NCBI RefSeq assembly: GCF_900496995.4
Contig: NC_044019.1
Coordinates: 3,472,001 to 3,536,000, forward strand
Origin: Aquila chrysaetos chrysaetos
Lineage: Eukaryota > Chordata > Aves > Accipitriformes > Accipitridae
Direction of reading: 5' to 3'
Length of the DNA stretch: 64,000 nt
A program made the position numbers and the translations under genes. Below, piece by piece: positions 10,741 through 49,167 of the stretch. The notes below the pieces were generated by a model. The model was not told the DNA's origin. It saw only the letters and a list, made by a program, of their open reading frames with translations, and searched no databases. Within the stretch, counting starts at the first letter, position 1; each line of letters starts with the position of its first letter.

Positions 10741-13700
10741 ATGCAGCGCCACGTGGACAACACACAGGCAGGGGACGGGACGGAAGCAGAGCAGGACGAA
10801 GCCCCTCTGCTTGCTCAGCAGCCCTCCTTCCGCACAGGTAAATAAATCCGCTCCCTGGGGAGCAGTGGGCTGAAGTGCTGCCTCAGCAGGGCTTGGGAGC
10901 CAGCGACCTCTGGCTTCCACATGTTCCCTCTATCCCTGGGCAAGTCTCCTTGCCTTCCTGCCCCTCCGTTCTCCTTCTGAAGATATGAACGGCCATTGCT
11001 GCAAAGGAGGAGGGCAGGGGCTCAGTGGTAGATGTCTGGAGGGTACCTGGAAAGAGCCATTTGTTGCTGCAGTAAGGTGATTGCCTCGTGACACAGACCT
11101 GTAGGATTGGGTTAGAGTTAACCCGTGGCCTCTCTAACCAGCCTCGGTTTGTGGGCTGTCTCCTTCTACAGGGGTCTGCTCCGCTCGCTGTGGCCTGGCC
11201 CTGGTCCTGCACATCTCTCTCTTCGTGGCATACGCACTCCGGGTCAGCCTCAGCATCGCCATCGTCGCCATGACTAACAGCAGCCATCCCCATGGCTGGT
11301 CCGGCAGTGCTCCCCACAGCTCCTACCCAGCATTTGCTCAGGACGTAAGTGGAAAGCAGATGCAGATAACTGAAAGATGCTTCCTGGGCTCAGTCCACTC
11401 TTGCTTTAGTGGGAGGACAGACTTGGAAGCAGCAGAGAAAAGCCTTGAGGACAAGGGGGGTGAAGGAGCAGAGAGATCAGTTTGTTGTACTTAGGGCTGC
11501 GTTTCCTGGTTGCTTCTCCCCTTCTGGAGGAGTCTGTGCCTGGAAGACAGAGATCTCTGTTTGACAGACGTGTTCTGTCTCCTCCAGGCCCCCGTGTACA
11601 ACTGGAGCGCTGAGACTCAAGGAATTGTCCTCAGCTCCTTCTTCTACGGCTACGGCCTCACACAGGCGCTGGGCGGGTACTGCTCAGGGCTACTCGGGGG
11701 GAAACCTGTCCTGGGCAGTGGGCTCCTGCTCTCCTCTGTGCTCACCCTCCTCGTGCCCCAAGCAGCAGAGCTCGGCGTGAGCTTCCTCATCGGGCTGCAG
11801 GCGCTGCTGGGCTTGGCTGAGGTCAGTCGTGGCTCCAGGTGTTGCCAGGCTATGAAACCTGCTCTGGTTAGCCCTGGCTGCATTCCCCGTGTCCCTTTCC
11901 TCCACGCTTCCTGTTATCTTTGCAGGGAGTGATATTTCCAGCTCAGTACACGCTCTGGGCAAAATGGGCCCCTCCACTGGAACGCAGCAGGCTCATGAAC
12001 ATTGCTGATGCTGGTAAGGCACAAGGACTTTTCCCTACCACCGACTCGGTAAGTGCAGGACCTCCCCTCAGCCCCTTCTTTCCAAGCCAGTCCTTGTAGC
12101 AGCCTCAAGTTCAAGGCTGTGGGTCCTTGGCAAAGAAGCATTAGCAGTGTTCAGCCTTTCCTCCTCCTCCCATCCTGCGTCTTTTGTCTCCTCAGCTCAG
12201 GTGAGCTTGAGGCAAGGGAGGGAACCTGGACACTGAAGGGAGTAAACCCAGATACAAGGGTGCTTGTTTGCACAGGTGCTTCATTTGTGTCACCACATTT
12301 TCCCATCACAGATCAGGCTGTAGGCTGCAGGTCTGTCCCACTTGCTGCTGGTCACACAAAGTCCTATTAAAATGACGCTTCTGGTTTCTGATCCCTAGGA
12401 TGCACTTTTGGGACTTTCTTTGCTCTCCTTGTGGCTGGAATCATCTGTCAGACTCTGGGGTGGCCTTTTGTCTCCTACATCTTTGGTGAGTAATGGCCCA
12501 TCACGTCCTTCTCCTCCAACCCCGTTGCAGGCTATTTGCTGGCAGAGCTCCCAAAGGTTCCCCATCAGATCCCTGCAGGACCAGCTCCATCCTTATTAGT
12601 CCCACACAGAGCTCTGGGCTCCCCTCTCACCTGCCAGGCCAGGATGAAACCATTTTGCTGGAGTACTAGTAGGGAACATGCCTTTGCTGAACCTTTTGTG
12701 CCATCAACCCAATCCCTTCCACTGTGAGCAACGGGTTCAGGGGAGTTTGTCACTTTCTATCTTCCTGCCCTTGCTGTTTTGCCAGCATCAGCCTCCATCC
12801 CGCTGGCTCTGAGCTCTGCCACAGCTCACCGTAAAGAGGGGCTGGCACTGAGAGTCCCACTCCTCACAGGTGGTGTTGGCTGCGTCTGGTGCCTCTGCTG
12901 GTTCCTCCTCGTGTACGAGGATCCTGCACATCACCCATGGATTAGTGCCAGGGAGCAGGAGTACATCGTGTCATTGCTGGCTCATCAGGTACACACAAAC
13001 CTTTTAACCACAACTGACCATGCTGCAGACACCTTGGCAAAGGGACTGCTCCATGGCAGTTCAGCCGGGTTCCTTATAGAGTGGCCAGGGCTAGTTGCAG
13101 TCTTCTCAGCAGCAGGTGGAGAGGCCAAAGAAAGCCTGGACAGCCTGCACAGGGGATGTGAGACAGGAAAGGAGGCACTGGCTGATGTTTTATTCCTTCC
13201 AGGGCAGGTCTCATGGCCACGCCCTCCCACTTGTGGCCATGGCTAAATCACTGCCTCTTTGGGCAATCACCATTGCCTGCTTCTGCACAGACTGGCTGTT
13301 CTACATGCTGCTGACCTCCATGCCCACGTTCATGAGCAACGTCCTCCACTTTGACCTCAGAGAGGTGAGTGCTGCCCTGCAGCTGAGGCTGGTCCCTGCA
13401 ACAGCAATGGGACTTGGTTCCTCTGTAGGCTGGGAACATGGAGGTTCCTCAGGGACATCTCTTCCTGAAGACCGGTGGCTCTGGGACCAAGGGAGCCGCA
13501 GTCTCGGAGCTCTTGGCTCCGTTCCTTTGTGCCATGGATGTGACAATGCCTTGTTCTCTGCTTTGCAGAACGGGCTCCTCTCCTCCCTGCCTTATGTTGG
13601 GAATGGGCTGGGGCACATCCTGGCTGGGCTGCTGGCTGATTTCCTCCTAGCCAGGCAAGTGCTTGGCACAGCAGCCGTCAGGAAGCTCTTCTCAGCACTC

Positions 13701-14990
13701 GGTAAGGACAAGCTTTCATCTGCTGTCCAGCCTTTCAAACACACTTATGTGGCCTGTTATAAACACATCCCCTTTTCCTCCCAAGGGATGCTGCTCCCAG
13801 CCATCTTCCTGGTGGCTGTGCCTTACATTGGCTGCAATTCCACAGTTGTTGTGGTCCTTCTAACACTGGCCTTGACAATAATCAGCATGACAGGGGCAGG
13901 CATCAATATTAACCACATCGATATAGCGCCCAGGTAAGTGGGTCTGACCTCTGTGCCCTCCCTGGCTCTGCGTCCTTCCTGTTCCCAATTCCCCAAAGCT
14001 TCTGCAGCTCCTACTCTGCCTTCCCTTTTCTTCTGTAGCTGCTGGCATTGTAAGCTAAGGAGTAAAATAAAGGCTTAAAATCCCCCCCAGTCTTGCAGGG
14101 AAGATCCTAGTGTTGCTCAGCATGACAGGCAGTATTCATGCAGATGAGGGAAGGGACTGGCAGCACCTACTCCTCTCCCTTCTTGTGACAGTTTCCTCTC
14201 TGCCTCACTCAGGAAATCTTTGCTTCCTCTCCCCAGATATGCAGGGTTCCTGCTGGGAATCACAAATACCTTTGGAATAGTCGCAGGAATTATTGCTCCT
14301 ACCGCAGTTGGACTTCTTGTCAGCCAGGTAATTTGCGGCCACAAACCACAAGCACATCCCTAGAAGAAAACACAGTTCTCAGAAATGGATTCCTTTCTTT
14401 GCACTAAATCAAAAATTACTCCAAGCCAACCCCCTCTCCCAACGAACACATGTGATGTAGCAGCCGGCAAACCAGAGCTCTGGACCATTTTGAGGACATG
14501 GGGATGACTCAGAAAGCAGGAAGAGCTCCACATGGGCCCCATCTGGATGTACTTAGAGATGGGGAGAGGGTCGAGGGAGTGGGGTGAGGGGGAAGCCCTG
14601 TGCCAGGCAGGAAAGCTTCCTGAATAGAGCACAGCACACAATGTTTCCAAAAATGCCAAGGCAGGAAATGCATCTCCAACAAGAGGGGGTCTGGCATATG
14701 TCTTGAGTTGAGCAAAGCTTTTCTGTTGTTGGTACTAGTAGCAAGCAGAGGATGGAGATGATTTTAATGCCAGTGAAGTGGGTGGCAGTAGTTGGGTGAT
14801 CACTACATGGAGATAAAGGGAAGGGTGATACCATTGTGATCTGTTCTTGGCCCCCCAGGATCTCCAGACTGGCTGGAGGAATGCCTTCTTCGTATCTGCA
14901 GCCCTCAACTTGTTTGGCCTGATCTTCTACATAGCCTTTGGCAGCGGTACCATCCAAGACTGGGCTAGGGAGGACACTGCTGTGCAATGA
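10741..14990 (+). CDS. SLC17-family (NPT/sialin-type) anion transporter, 11 exons, 487 aa
   Basis: A major-facilitator transporter of the SLC17 family, which move organic anions, urate or phosphate with Na+, H+ or membrane potential. Exons: 10741-10837, 11172-11344, 11588-11821, 11926-12013, 12399-12485, 12870-12988, 13203-13364, 13569-13701, 13786-13933, 14237-14327, 14859-14990; all phases close. Family signatures in order: [14 protein letters not shown] with conserved Arg56, [88 protein letters not shown]. The C-terminal half ([17 protein letters not shown]) resembles SLC17A1-A4 more than sialin, while the ETQG and FPA motifs are sialin-like. The N terminus has DEAPLL (19-24), a possible acidic dileucine sorting signal. 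Sequons at Asn68 and Asn95 fit the first extracytoplasmic loop. The substrate cannot be read from sequence, and I do not assign a symbol. Confidence 0.9.
14066..14071 (+). terminator. possible intronic AATAAA in the SLC17-like gene
   Basis: A canonical hexamer in intron 9 (13934-14236). If used, it would give a transcript lacking the last two exons and so the final transmembrane segments. A chance match is quite possible. Confidence 0.2.
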
Positions 14991-22932: not shown

Positions 22933-25900
22933 TTACGTGCTGGCTGCTGCTGAGGCCACAGAGCTAGCCCGGGACCTGGAGCTCGGGGAGCGTGGTAGGA
23001 TGATGGTGCAGCATGAGACACCCACGGTGGCCTCGGGGAGGTCCTCATCCTCGGTCCACTCGTTGAGGTCAGGGTTGTAGCACTGCACGCATTTCTGATA
23101 CTTCTTCCCGGTCTCGTTCCAGCCACCCACCAGGCACAAGCGCCCCTCCAGCAGAGCCACCCCGGCCGTGCTGACCCCCGTGGGCAGGGGTGCCACGTAA
23201 CTCCACTGCGCTGTGAGTGGGCTGTAGCACTCCACGGGCATCACGTCCACCCGCTCACCCTGGGGACCCAGCTGGCTCCCACCCAGCACATATACTCGGT
23301 CGGCCACAGTGGCTGCGCAGTGCCAGCCCCGGGGGGTGCTGAGCCTTGCCTGCTCCCTCCAGGTGTCGGTGCTGGGCTCGTAGCAGCACACGGTGCGGGA
23401 ATAGGCATGGCTGATGTAGCCGCCTGTGACCAGGAGCTTGCCATCAATGACGGTGGTGGCATGGCAGCAGCGGTGCGTCTCCAGGCTTGCCTTGCTCTGC
23501 CAGCTGTTGGTGGTGGGGACGTAGCACTCGACAGATGCCAACGCGCCCTCAGCGTTGCGCCCTCCAACAGCGTAGAGGAGCCCATTGCAGGCACTCAGGC
23601 TGAAGTGCGTCCTCCTGTGCTGCATGCTGGCCAGGTGCAGCCAGGTGTTGAAGCGTGGATCGTACCTGGGGGACGAAGGGCAGATCTGTCTGTCCAGGAC
23701 TAGCATCAGAGCTGCGGGGAGAAGAGGGCCCTGGCAAATATCTGCCTTCGGAGGAGACAACTTGTGCTCTGGAAGAGCCTCTCTGTCTTCTCCAGCAGTA
23801 AAAAAGCATCTGGACAGGCAGTGCAGATGGAGACAATGGCACTGCACAGGACTGGATCCTGCCTGTGACTGCTGGGGTTGTTGCTGCTCTAACCCTTAGG
23901 ATGGCCCAGCATTCCTCCTGCCACCACAAGCTCCGGCCTGGCTTGGAAATGGTGAGTGCTACTCATCTGAGGTGTCCCCAAGCACTGTTACTGTCCCCTC
24001 TGTTGGGTCTTGGCAGGTAGAAGAGGACCAAGGGACAGGCCTTCCCTGCCCACCCTGCCAGGCCAAAGCCAGGCACTTGATAAGAAACCGGCTCCTTGTG
24101 TGCCCATGAGGTGGCAGAGGGAACTGGAACGGCTGCGGCCCCAGAGCGATGCCACGGGGACTAAGGCCAGGCTGGAAAAGGTGGATAAGCTACTGGCCAG
24201 AAATAGAAAGGAGACCTGTCAGTGGGTCCCTGAAACCTCACTCCATGCAGGAGAAAGAGACCAGTGATAGCTCCTAACCAAGGGGTGGTGATCAGGGGCC
24301 ATGGAAGGGCTGGCCTCGAGCAGTGCCCACGATGTTGCATGTGGAGCCTCAAGTGGCTGAGCCAAGCTGTGGGCAGAGCAGCTAGGAAGTTCAGGTTTAG
24401 CTTGCAAACAAAATACTGCATGTCAGGTTGCCATGGTTACTCCTCCTTTCTTTGAACAGTAATCCCTTGGCGATCCAGTGACAGGTTTATGGGGATTTAG
24501 GAAACAAACCTTGTTATTTAAATAACGAAGAGAGAAATGGAGGCGGAGAGAAGAAAGCCTGAAGGGCAACAGGAATCCTACAGACAGTAAATCTACCTTA
24601 AAATGAATCCAGGCAAACCAGAAACCGGGTCGAGGCTGGCACTGGCTGGAGGAACAGCCACCAAGCGAAAAGGGGAGCTCCCCAGAGTAACAAAATGGGT
24701 TACTGCTAAATAACAAGGGCTCCCATTTCTCCAGGAGCCTCACAACTTTGAAGAGGCCCTGCCTTGCCCTCATCCTGCACCGGTGCTGTGTGCTGCCGGA
24801 GGACATGGGCAGCACAGCCCAGGCCCCAAAGTCCCCAGGGGAAGCCCAGGCCAGGGTCACGCAGACCAAATGCCTGGAAGTGGTTTCCAGGTCTTGGGTC
24901 TCACAGACCAGCACCCTGTGCTGGGCCTCGCTGCATTTGTCCCTCCCTGGCAGCGTTATCCCGGGGGCCAGACCTACCTCCTCGTTACTGATAGCAGAGG
25001 AACCTTTCTGACGCGCTCATCCCTCACCCCATGGGGGATGCTGGGGCACAGGCAAACACAGCACAGCTCTGAACCCCTCCCCAGGGTCTGTGTGGCCAGG
25101 TGGTGCCCGTCTTACCTGCTCAGGCTGCTGACGGCATGCTTGGCCTGGTTCCTGGCATCATTTTGGTCTTCACCACCCGCGATGTAGATGAATCCATCCA
25201 TCACCACCACACACTGGTTAAAACTTTTTGCTGGCATCTCCGTCAGCTTGTTCCAGTTTCCCTCTGCGTCCCTGTAGCTGATCTCCCTGCTAAGAGCCTT
25301 CTCGGTCAAAGCTGGACGACCCCCAACTGTGACGAGCACCCTCTGGCCTCCCCGAATCCTGGTTCTCCGTGACTGAAGGCTGTTTTGCTGGTGGGGGAGC
25401 AGGTGGTAATTCATAGCATCCACGAGGAGCTTGTGGCACTGTGGGTCTTGCATCATGCGTGGCACAGGTTGCACATGGTTGACCAAGTCTGGAGCTGAGA
25501 TTGTGCCGAATCGAATGTTGCTCAGGAGGTCAGCAGCATATCGGACCCGTTTTGGGTCAAACTCCAGCCACTTGACAGCGATCTGGAAGGCTGCAACCTC
25601 ACTGGGTATCTGCAGGCCATCATCCATCAGCAGCTCATTGATCTGATCGAAGGGGAGTTTCATGAACTGGTCAGTCTTGGAGAACTCCAGGAAGTTTTCC
25701 CGGATGAATTTCCGCGTGGCATCTTTCACCTGGTTGAGGCCGTAGGTGGCTGAGATGTTGGCAATGTACACGCAGTTCTCCACAGCCATCTCCCGAACGA
25801 GGAAGTCACCGCACATGTTCAGCAGTGCTGGCACCTGCAGCTGAGTGGCCGCGGCGATGGTGCTGCCGATGGTGTACAGTGAGAGGCTCAGCTTCCCCGT

Positions 25901-26302
25901 GTAGGCGTAGGTGATGACGGTGGTCAGGCCCAGTGGGGAGACGTCGTGGAGCTCCACCCGGTGCAGCTGAGGGTCTCTCTGCAGCAGGCGGTGGAAGTAC
26001 TCGCTGCAGGAAGCCAGGACGAGTTTATGCACGTCGAAGGACTTTGTTTTGGTGGCAATGGTGAGATCGCAGAGGAACCGCTTCTGGCGCATCTGGTTCA
26101 TCCCCTCCAGAAGGCTGGCTCCATGGTCGGACGCTTCAACCTCCGTGGCCGTGCAGTGGAAGCCGTTGGAGCCGCTATCGTACAAACCATTCAAGTGATT
26201 GAGGTGTTCGACATCTAGCAAAGCATCTTCCACCATCACCGGGGTGATGGATGCATCCTCTTTATCCACCTTGGGCTTCTTGGTTTTCTTTTTGGGTGCC
26301 AT
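22933..26302 (-). CDS. KLHL31-like BTB-BACK-kelch protein, two coding exons, 639 aa
   Basis: Kelch-like protein, probably a substrate adaptor for a cullin-3 ubiquitin ligase. Coding exons: 25116-26302 and 22933-23665, joined across AG|G ([12 protein letters not shown]). The N terminus [11 protein letters not shown] resembles that of KLHL31. The BTB domain lies at about residues 75-175 ([18 protein letters not shown]), then BACK ([19 protein letters not shown]), then six kelch repeats from about residue 317 ([10 protein letters not shown]) ending with [14 protein letters not shown] and RASSVAS. Many segments match KLHL31 residue for residue ([34 protein letters not shown]), but divergence elsewhere is too high for the orthologue, which lies on human chromosome 6. 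I therefore read it as an ancient paralogue. KLHL31 works in muscle; a similar role here is inference. A good 3' splice site at 26324 suggests an upstream non-coding exon. Confidence 0.93.
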
Positions 26303-26324
26303 CCTGGCAGAATCGGAACAGGAC

Positions 26325-29300
26325 CTGGTGAGAAAGGAGAGGTGAGGAGCCTTGTAGCAGGGGTACGGGTATTCTTCTGCTCTTTAAGACATTCAGTTAA
26401 GCAAAGGAAAGACTCCCACTGACTCATACACTCTTTGGGTCAGGCCAAGGGAAGGACGGAAACTGCCTCCCAAGCCCTGTACGCCTCGGAGCCACGTGAA
26501 AGGCATCAAGGGCCATGACTGACAGGGGATCCTCAACTCTCAGCCAGTACCAGCACCTTCGCTGTGTTAAAAAAGGACTGGGGATTTTGGGTGGTTGCTT
26601 TGGGAAACTGGGAGCACCCACTGGTTCCTGTGGTGTGGGGCTGTGCTTGGCCCCGCTGACAGCTCCGCTGTCTGGGGTGACACAGACTCCAAGCAGAGCG
26701 AGATGGCAATCGCAGGGTGTGTTTTGCCTGACTCAAGCGCGTGCCAGATGGGGTGAATCAAGTCCAAGCAGCTCTGACAGAGGTTTCCACACAACAGTGA
26801 GGTGAGATGAGTCCCAGCACTGCAGGACCGCATAGAAAAGGGTGTGCATTTCCCCCTCAACCCCTTGGGCACGGTGAGGCACTGCTGGGTAAGCAGTGGG
26901 GCCAGCTGCCCTTTGGAGTGACCAGTTCAGAGTGCAGGTGAAAGGGGAAACAACAACAAAAATCCAGCTTTTGAATGTTCCCAAATTCCAGTTTGAAACT
27001 CCAGTCTGAAACTCAGCAGTGACCTCAGCTCCTCTGAGGGAGCTTGGAGCAGCCAATATATGAGGGAACAAATCTACTGGCCAGAAATAGCTGTTGCTGC
27101 GCTGTCTCACATGTCTGGGTACTGTTTATTATGCTTGGCCATAAAGATCAGGTTTCTTGGAACTGAGTAATCAGCTCGTATTTAGCACCAGGCAAAGAAG
27201 GGGGGCATTATGAGACTTCAGCAAAAATACAGAGAAGGGAAAAGTTTAGTAAAAGTCCCCGCCAAGAAGGAAAGAGGATTCAGGGCTGAGTCTGAGGGGG
27301 AGAGCAGCAGTGCCAGCCCAGCCAAGCACAGCTGGCTGGGTTGAGCAGAGGGAGCAGGGATGACACAGAAGCCAAGGGGATTCAGGAGCAAAGTCCCAGG
27401 CACTTGAGCCATCCCTGGTATTGTGGCGTTTCATGGGGCTACCCCAATTTACACGACTGAGAGCTTATCTATCACAGTGTCATATCCTGGAGTAGGCATC
27501 ATTCGTTCTGAAACTGGGATGCAAATGCTGCTCTCTCGGTGCGTTTGAATATGAAATGGTTTCTGACACCCAGCTCAGGATTGGGAAAAGGAACTGGGAT
27601 TTATCCTTTCAGAGCAACACCACTTTGATATTTCCAAACACACATTTTGTTCAGACTATCCATTTCCCAAGAAAATTTGCAGTTTCAGCTTTTCAGCTGG
27701 ATTTGAAGTGAAAATACAGGTTAAATATTGGTTAAATAAATATAAAATATCATTTTTCCAGGCCTTCTATCCAGATCCCTCAAACCTGTATCTCTTTGAG
27801 ATATGACACTGCACAAACATCCTTGCTGCTAACAAAGCCAAAGAGAAGCAAGACTTGTCTTGCAGGAAGGTGGCCATTCTGCTGCCCCCACGCTGAGACC
27901 TGTCCCAGCAGGACGGGTGCCAGGTTGAGGTCTGCAACCTGCTGGGGCAGGAGGGTTTGGCCTTGTGAAATGAGTGACCTGGGTGTCAGCTCCCACTGGG
28001 CTGTGCTGAGGATCTGCCTGATCCCTTCTGCTCCCCAGATGGCCTGGATTTTGACCTTTTGTTACAGAAACAAGCACAGTGTCTGCAGCAAACCCCTGTT
28101 TCTGTCCATAAAACTGCTCACCCCCCCTTTCAGGGGCTCCAGACCCCATTTTTGAGAGGTGACACCAGTGCTCAGCAGCTCTTGTGTGCCTGGTGTGAAG
28201 CCCAGCATCACAGTTGGGCTAGCTGATCTCCAAAAGCCTTCTTAATTCCTTCTGGAAAGCCCAGCAATGCAGCTGGCTTTCTCCATCGCCCTGTCCACTC
28301 CACTCAGAGTCAAGGGGGGAAGTTGTTCGGGGATAAAACAGAGGTCTTCTAACTGCATTACACTTCATACAAGTACAGTGGAGCCATGAGAAGTTTTGGG
28401 CTCATACTGATGTCCATGGAATCCTGCCTGTCCCCTTTGGGCACCTTTGACAGACTCCGGTTTGAAGCACGTGTTCATATTATTCCAGTGTCTGGCTGCA
28501 GGAGGGCAGAGCGACCTTTACTACCTGCAGTTAATTTAAAATGGGACATCATTGCTGCTTCTGATTGAAATACCACTGTAGTGACTTGAAAGGGATATTT
28601 TTCCTGCAGATTAGTCCTGGCTGCTGGATTAATCTAGGGAGCTGGTATGAAGAGATTTCAAAGGGCCCAGACAGGAAGGAGGGAAGACAGGGCTTTTTTC
28701 TAGCTGTTTAAACTTCTCTTAAAAGACAGTGGTTGTCCTCACATCCTTTCAGTGCTGCTAATCTCAGCCCTGCACCGTATTACTGAGCTAAGGGCAAAGC
28801 AGGACCTATGCTGGGTGATACTGTGTCTTCAGGAAGTTACAGCAGGCTTATTTTAATATCTAAGCAAACAGGCAGAATCCCTCTCCTTTACCTGCCAGTG
28901 CCCACAGCCCCGGGTTCAAGCAGGGTCTGACTGGCAGCAAACACCGAGCTGGCCTGGGAAACTACCTGGACACTGCAGCTCTGGGCGCTATTTTGCTGCC
29001 AATAATTCCTCCAGCCCCTTTTTAGAAAACAACAAAGTCTTTCCCCATGCCATTATTTCCATCATTCAGCAGTTCCCGTGCCCCACGCAAGGTCTCTGCA
29101 AATCCTGCTAGGCGAGCTCTGATTCTCCATGACTTGTCTATAGGCTGGGTCTGCTCCTTACCTTGCTGTTAAGACCGGTTAGTCCAAGGGGAAGCTCTGA
29201 CCAGCACAGGGCTCTGCAGGTTGAGAGACAGAGACCCTCAACTTTCCCCACGCGACATCCTCCTCCCTCCTCTCCCCTCCCAGCCAGCTGACTGCTCTTA

Positions 29301-46547: not shown

Positions 46548-49167
46548 ATGGCGCACGGTTACGGGCGTTGCTGTTGCTGCTGCGGGGAAGCGGCGGCGGT
46601 CGGCGGGGATGGCGGCGCGGCCTGGGGGCTTTACCTACGGATCGACCGACAGCGGCTGCAGTGCCTTAACGAGCGTCGAGAGGGCAGCGGCGCTCTCGTC
46701 TTCCGCGCTTGGGAGGAGCGGGGTGACCGAGCCCAGGTGGGGCCGGGCCGGGCCGGGCCGGCGGTCTGCAGCGGAGCCGGGCGGCGGCGGGAGGGGGTGC
46801 GGGATTAAGCGAGGTGGGGGGGGGGGTCCCCGCCTTACCCCTGAGCCCCCTCCGAGGTTACCCGCCCCACCGCTCCCTGTATTCACCCCCCCCGCCTACC
46901 TGCGCAGCCGGGGCCGGCCCTGACCTGCTCCTGTCTCTCCCCAGTTCGTAGAAAGCGACGATGATGAGGAGCTTCTGTTCAATATCCCGTAAGTCCTTTC
47001 CCTGAGCTCCTTCGGCATCGTTTTGGCTGCTGACAGGGCTTATTTCTCACCCCTTTTGTTGCTGGGAATGAGGCACGTCTGCGTGCTTCTGTAACCGGGG
47101 CTGATCTGGAGAGAACGGAGATGAAAATGCCGCTTCTGCGTCTCTTGGCAGGTTTACGGGTAACGTGAAATTAAAAGGAGTAATTGTGATGGGAGAAGAT
47201 GATGGGACGCATCCAGCAGAGATGAGACTGTAAGTAAAATGAGCATTACCTTGGCCAGAGCCTAAACTGAACTGATTGTTGAACCCAACAATTCTCATGC
47301 TGTTGGGTGCCCAAGCACCCAGCGAGGGTGTGCAGCGTAGGAGAACGCAGTGTTACTCTGCAGCAGCTCCGTCATCCCAGGGCCTCAGGAAGAAAAAGAA
47401 ACCGTAACCTGTACAGGGATGAGCGTGGCTGCTTGCTGCCTTTTTCGCTAGAGAAATGGGGCACCAATTTTAATTAGAAGAGAAGGTTTGGTTGGGACGC
47501 TGACTGTGCATTGTGAAGAAATCAACCTGCTGCTGGCTTAGCTGGCTGCAGAAGGATCGGTGGGCCAAGAGGGGTTACGCTTTGGGGGGAAACTGAGGCC
47601 TGGGAGGGAGGGAGGAACACAAGTGACAGAGTGTCCTGCAGCCAGGTGAGGTTTGTAAGGCTCTTGGCAGCGGTCCTGCCGTACTGAGCCACGTGGCCTG
47701 CTTTAGCTCCTGAAAGGAGAGAAATGCTTCTTAATACTGCCTTTTTTTTTTTAAAAAAAATATGAAAGAGTATTGAGTACTCTGCAGTTCTTGCTTGTGG
47801 GGAAAGAAATACACCTTTATCAAGCCCCTATTTTCCTTGGTCTGCAGTGTACCGGGTCTGGGTTTCTTCATGTACCCAAGCGTGCCGAGATCTGTATCTC
47901 CCCAGCTTTGTTCCTTGCTCCTCCTTGTTATTTCTTCAGGGTGTTGGGTATTCTGGAGCGTGGTGGTGCTTTGTGGTGGCATTGGTATTTTTTCCCTTAG
48001 AAGACAAAGCAAATCCAGTTTCTTACTGTTCAGAAGAATCCGGGTAGAGCTAATGGATGGGGAGGAAACCAATTAGCTGACTTGTATGTTAATAACTTCC
48101 TGGGTTTCCTCCCTCTCTTCCCAGGTTCAAGAACATTCCTCACATGTCCTTTGATGACACAGCCAGGGAACCGGACCAGACGTTCAGCCTGAACCGGGAT
48201 CTGACAGGCGAGCTGGAGTACCCCACCAAGTACGATGCAGACCCACGTGTCTGGGGGGTGCAGGGGGCTGCTCCTCCCGAGCGCAGGCACTGCACTCTAT
48301 CCAGCCTGCTGGTGTGCCACCGAATTTTAGGAGAGTGTTAGCAGAGGGCAGTTCCTTCCCTTGCATCTCAAAGCTGCCCACAGTAGAATTTGTCTCCCTG
48401 GCTCTGTCCTGTCCTTGTCAGGTGAGAGCTCTGGTCTGAAAACCCCCTCCTTGGAGTCAGGGGGGTGCCTGTGCCTGTGACCCAGGACTTTTTGGGGTGC
48501 AGAATCATCCCGGTGTCATGTCACCTGCTCCTGGCCCCAGTGACAGCTTGTTGCTAGCCTGCTCGCCACAAACGTGAGGGAAGCTGCTCCTCCTGCACCC
48601 TCAAGTCGTTTGCTCCCAAATCTGACTTGGGTTAGGGTAAGAGCTCAGCACCGTGCTGAGAGGAGGTGGCAATGCAGCGGAGTGGCAGCCTGTATGCACA
48701 GCTCCGGTTTCAGAGTGTGTTTTCTTTCAGAATTGCCCGTTTTCTCCAATGTTTCCCACCTCTCCATCCACTTCCCGAAGAACTTTGGAGCGGAGACAAC
48801 AAAGATTTTTTATATAGGCCTGAAAGGAGAGTGGACGGAGGTAGGTGAGAGCAGAGATGAGCAAGACTGTGCTGGTAGTGCAAAAAGGGCTTTAAATCAT
48901 AGCTTAAGTTGAGCTCTAGCTGTGGGGAAGAAGTGGGAACAGTGCGGGGGAGGTCTGTGGTGAAGTCTGTAAGATGGGAACCTGCTCAGCTCTTGCCAGT
49001 CAGGTGTTTTAGGAGGGACTTGAATGCTGCTCTCCTCTGGACTAACGCATTCCATCTTAACTCAGGCTCATCGCCACGAAGTCACCATCTGCAATTATGA
49101 AGCATCAGCAAACCCAGCTGATCACAAGCTGGAACAAATCACCCCACAGACTCACTTCATCTCCTAA
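46548..49167 (+). CDS. PITHD1: PITHD1, PITH-domain protein, 6 exons, frame broken by one extra base in exon 5
   Basis: PITHD1 is a small PITH-domain protein related to the C-terminal domain of TXNL1. Exons: 46548-46736, 46945-46988, 47152-47229, 48125-48229, 48731-48840, 49066-49167. Protein segments match human closely: GLYLRIDRQRLQCLNE, FVESDDDEELLFNIPFTGNV, MSFDDTAREPDQTFSLNRDL, SNVSHLSIHFPKNFGAETTK, HEVTICNYEASANPADH, QITPQTHFIS. The exon lengths total 628, one over a multiple of three. In exon 5 the text KIAR is followed by TTTT (48740-48743) where homologues need three T to read RFSNV. No other acceptor restores the frame. All remaining exons are intact, so a sequencing or assembly error is most likely, but a real allele is possible. 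The N terminus carries a run of five Cys not present in human. Confidence 0.93.

Follow-up and report, generated by a model that had tools for sequence, protein, structure and literature searches.

The PITHD1 gene of the golden eagle reference lies in the 64,000-nt stretch of DNA analyzed here (the window), and its assembled coding sequence is one base too long. The resulting break of the reading frame in exon 5 is beyond chance, because the profile of the PITH domain continues across it in two different frames. The surplus base is most probably an indel left in the consensus of the PacBio CLR assembly bAquChr1.4, and PITHD1 would then be an ordinary working gene in the bird itself.

Structure and identity of the gene

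Frameshift-aware spliced alignment, with human PITHD1 as the reference, recovered six coding exons (Table 1) with GT-AG borders throughout and 158 of 211 residues identical. The exons add up to 628 nt (3n + 1), the same total and the same surplus of one that a sequence-only reading of this DNA had reported. Hence, the canonical exons do not form a single open reading frame, and the assembled frame stops after 186 aa. Apart from the +1 event, we found no defect among the start codon, the 10 splice sites, and the stop codon of PITHD1.

Table 1. Coordinates of the PITHD1 features within the window
Feature	Position	Strand	Details
Coding exon 1	46548..46736	+	189 nt; ATG to GT donor, phase 0; spliced alignment
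Exon 2	46945..46988	+	44 nt; spliced alignment
Exon 3	47152..47229	+	78 nt; spliced alignment
Exon 4	48125..48229	+	105 nt; donor score 7.0, higher than 35% of local donors
Exon 5, carrying the frame break	48731..48840	+	110 nt; spliced alignment
Exon 6	49066..49167	+	102 nt; normal stop TAA at 49165-49167
Site of the surplus base (TTTT and the next C)	48740..48744	+	Spliced alignment, protein-level check
Premature TGA in exon 6 (the last), where the unshifted frame ends	49098..49100	+	
Possible 17-nt extension of exon 5 from a weak upstream acceptor that restores the frame	48714..48730	+	

The PITH profile (PF06201; cutoff, 23.7 bits) matches the part before the break at 123.9 bits and the part after it at 45.8 bits. 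PITH is the sole Pfam family in both parts, and no thioredoxin domain precedes it. A search of solved structures with the N-terminal part returned TXNL1 chains and an Arabidopsis PITH protein, and the C-terminal part gave a single chance-level match (asparagine synthetase; E value, 0.92). The C-terminal tail, HEVTICNYEASANPADH..QTHFIS, is present in exon 6, as judged against the human tail given in the available part of PMC12700798.

The gene order across the window and its flanks is RPL11, ELOA, PITHD1, LYPLA2, GALE, HMGCL, FUCA1, CNR2, PNRC2, and SRSF10, such that RPL11 and a large ELOA exon lie upstream of PITHD1 and LYPLA2 and GALE lie downstream. This matches the human order, with ELOA, LYPLA2, and GALE beside PITHD1. 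In ELOA, 397 residues of one exon aligned without a break, and SRSF10 was found exon by exon. ID3 yielded weak chance matches only, and neither ID3 nor an E2F2 fragment gave anything at a threshold of 1e-3 in 264 kb. Judged by these sequence features, i.e., the PITH profile, the tail, the missing thioredoxin domain, and the conserved neighbors, the gene is the PITHD1 orthologue; it shares the domain, the tail, and the neighbors ELOA, LYPLA2, and GALE with human PITHD1 and differs from it, as assembled, by the one surplus base in exon 5.

Several other features of the region were recorded. A kelch-like (BTB-BACK-Kelch) gene lies on the minus strand between RPL11 and ELOA (22936-26383), with strong Pfam matches in the open frames 25115-26383 and 22936-23895. 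A plus-strand open frame (13095-13934) has a weak match to an MFS transporter family (21.6 bits versus a curated cutoff of 33.4 bits). The chromosome that carries the window is 30.6 Mb long. Ahead of the PITH domain, the PITHD1 N terminus (46548-46640, plus strand) contains a run of five cysteines (MAHGYGRCCCCCGEAAAV) and is unlike the His-rich human start.

The frame break in exon 5

Because the first setting made introns cheaper than frameshifts, we repeated the alignment with two further settings (introns/frameshifts at 25/15 and 30/12). Under all three, the +1 event was the only frame event in PITHD1. The PITH profile, which owes nothing to the human sequence, matches over positions 7 to 127 before the break and over positions 129 to 175 after it in the other frame, with a gap of one profile position between the two matches. 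The sequence-only reading had placed exon 5 at 48731-48840 and its T run at 48740-48743; it read KIAR in the frame before the run and FSNVSHLSIH in the other. All of this was borne out, the second frame running on to ...HFIS. It had further taken the extra base to be one of the T's; one surplus base is indeed there, but it may also be C48744. At the protein level, removal of any of the four T's (48740-48743) or of C48744 leaves K-I-A-R-F-S-N-V, and the T homopolymer is thus the simplest reading without being a forced one.

A further claim, that no other acceptor AG of the needed phase exists, did not stand, so the earlier observation as a whole is partly confirmed. The AGs before 48714 (+17 nt) and 48702 (+29 nt) both have that phase, and an exon 5 begun at either reads through to the normal stop; a downstream donor after 48246 has the same effect. 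With GT or GC donors in 48131-48330 and acceptors in 48601-48800, the screen found 148 in-phase, open donor-acceptor pairs; the closest three among the pairs listed alter 17, 17, and 22 nt, the third with a GC donor. We scored these sites with a matrix built from 35 introns of the region (six genes supply 40 GT introns, of which the five of PITHD1 were set aside) and rejected the alternative pairs, whose sites were weaker than the canonical ones, the GC donor falling outside the scoring. The canonical acceptor of exon 5 scores 10.7 bits, close to the leave-one-out median of 11.2 bits for the 40 true acceptors, versus 2.8 bits for 48714 and -0.4 bits for 48702. An upstream AG with the same phase and an open extension also occurs at 9 of 41 local introns (including PITHD1's own and one doubtful intron), and its presence upstream of exon 5 therefore means little.

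Second copies and decay of the gene were considered across the whole assembly (1,233,704,830 bases in 144 contigs). Among the best-scoring candidates in these 1.23 Gb, the DNA of exon 5 and the C-terminal part of the protein match this locus only, so neither an intact second copy of that part nor a processed one was found; a 100-base query from exon 4 likewise has one genome match. Identity to human PITHD1 is as high after the break (54/66 residues) as in the PITH part before it (95/116 residues) and hence gives no sign of decay. Moreover, PITHD1 showed no additional frame break or stop, and all its splice sites are in place. Because the part after the break is this well conserved and a second defect was not seen, an old loss of PITHD1 appears unlikely from the sequence.

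Origin of the surplus base

The assembly bAquChr1.4, of the European golden eagle (145 scaffolds), was made from PacBio CLR reads at 46-fold coverage with Falcon-unzip and arrow, followed by two freebayes polishing rounds that drew on 10X reads and made homozygous edits only (PMC8499043). It is thus a CLR assembly with short-read polishing, as is expected for a residual CLR indel, and the change itself is a one-base difference in length in or beside a homopolymer with no other damage. In the available part of Rhie et al. 2021 (the Vertebrate Genomes Project; PMC8081667), CLR assemblies stand at Q40 after at least two short-read rounds, short indels that cause frameshifts are the commonest errors, and a locus can remain unpolished where the alternate haplotype attracts the reads. 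TLK1 was left broken in the primary assembly of Anna's hummingbird. Like such cases, eagle PITHD1 combines a short indel with a conserved gene and frame conservation on both sides, and it shares their read type and polishing; unlike them, it lies among genes that look polished, as judged from the assembled sequence.

On this account, long-read consensus calling would have added a base within or next to the T run, and the two polishing rounds, restricted to homozygous edits, would have left it in place; the real bird would produce full-length PITHD1 of 208 aa. The sequence-only reading had considered a homopolymer length error likely. The assembly method, the published error profile, and the local error count agree with it that a length error of the consensus is likeliest, but the base need not be a T and alternative acceptors do exist, and its interpretation is accordingly supported in part.

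For the local count, we used LYPLA2, GALE, RPL11, HMGCL, FUCA1, CNR2, and PNRC2, with 6,138 coding nt (6,766 nt with PITHD1); SRSF10, ELOA, and the kelch-like gene fall outside it. No frame break or stop was found in these seven neighbors at two of the three penalty settings. The third (introns 30/frameshifts 12) introduced one event at HMGCL residue 8, within a poorly matching start of about 20 residues where a doubtful 72-nt intron with a GC donor stands under the first setting, and two toward the end of CNR2 (residues 322 and 334), where its sequence has diverged. We rejected the CNR2 events as alignment artifacts because a single frame of this gene stays open over 349 aa. At Q40, with every error counted as a frame-shifting indel, 6,766 nt should hold no more than 0.68 frame errors, against the one observed (chance of at least one, 0.49). 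The probability of no break in 6,138 nt is 0.002 at Q30 and 0.14 at Q35, which speaks against a wholly unpolished block. From this count, two options are left: polishing missed a single site, or this site is heterozygous in the bird, since edits restricted to homozygous sites would leave a heterozygous one in place as well.

Several observations run against a consensus error. Exon 5 is unique and has an ordinary G+C content (46% versus 50.5% in its surroundings); short reads should therefore cover it, and polishing should have removed a plain homozygous error. The run has only four bases, and none of the runs in the neighboring genes, 72 of the same length and 17 longer, carries a frame break. 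Finally, all seven neighbors are unbroken, and Korlach et al. 2017, who used phased Falcon-unzip assembly of two birds to prevent indel errors, had found no error so far in the genes examined, according to the available part of PMC5632298. Among other published figures, a HiFi golden eagle assembly has a frameshift indel QV of 39.8 computed from BUSCO genes (PMC13326411, available part). The false frameshifts described in the accessible part of PMC9516821 concern older assemblies judged against those of the Vertebrate Genomes Project and therefore have no direct bearing on bAquChr1.4. Our weighing of the readings is a judgment that draws on the above rates and on the presumed rarity of frameshift alleles in any one gene.

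The ordinary G+C content of exon 5 keeps the heterozygous option alive. The surplus base would then be a true frameshift allele of this bird, heterozygous or rare, with the other allele making normal protein. The polishing rule, which keeps sites that are not homozygous, and the position in a unique exon where polishing should remove an error both fit such an allele. Its transcript would encode 186 aa, the last 43 of them foreign; a stop codon in the last exon is not expected to elicit nonsense-mediated decay, and as the premature TGA lies there, the mutant transcript would be expected to persist. We nonetheless consider such an allele unlikely, given that loss-of-function alleles should be rare per gene and that Q40 errors alone could reach 0.06 for a gene as long as PITHD1.

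Far less probable is that golden eagles, or the lineage they belong to, have recently lost the C-terminal part as a fixed change; the protein would then retain its two interface residues but not the tail, for which contacts with PSMD14 and the proteasome pore are predicted. The break does fall between the two, with the counterparts of D73 and K142 before it and the whole tail after it (residues and tail as in the available part of PMC12700798). Against this stand the undiminished conservation after the break and the lack of any second disabling change among those sought above, as well as the importance of the fly counterpart for male fertility, with which the cited mouse work agrees (PMC10409296, available part).

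We give just as little weight to a real but harmless surplus base removed from consequence by splicing at 48714. This acceptor has the right phase, with no stop before the normal one, and its 214-aa product, with VCFLSELPV in place of IAR, still matches PITH at 171.8 bits. However, only 7% of the 40 local acceptors score lower than this site, comparable AGs occur at 9 of the 41 local introns, and the fit is 7 bits below that of the canonical exons joined by X (178.6 bits). Programmed +1 ribosomal frameshifting at CGU UUU C is scarcely credible: UUU C is the frameshift site of influenza PA-X, and a shift there yields exactly R-F-S-N-V, but the codon that follows is not a stop and is not known to stall ribosomes.

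Implications for PITHD1 in raptors

In human PITHD1, D73 and K142 stand at those numbers. Both are proteasome interface residues, and the tail is predicted to contact PSMD14 and the pore of the proteasome, as described in the available part of PMC12700798. If the assembled frame were real, the 186-aa product would thus be without its proteasome-engaging tail. A rather unlikely proposal built on this is that of a real eagle allele whose stable PITHD1 would touch the 19S particle via the D73/K142-type residues while carrying the 43-residue foreign end in place of the tail; the weak upstream acceptor may then supply some near-normal protein.

PITHD1 has been linked to fertility in fly and mouse in the accessible part of PMC10409296, which cites mouse knockout work (PMC7008373). 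A literature search for PITHD1 with chicken returned nothing on this subject, as judged by title. Given these links to fertility and, through the tail, to the proteasome (PMC10409296 and PMC12700798, available parts), a real null allele would matter more than an error of the assembly. The golden eagle reference has already served for the lift-over annotation of another subspecies (PMC13326411, available part). The preferred reading, a residual consensus indel, is best taken as a warning for gene catalogues, in which a conserved proteasome-linked gene may be labeled as low quality or lost in a raptor reference.
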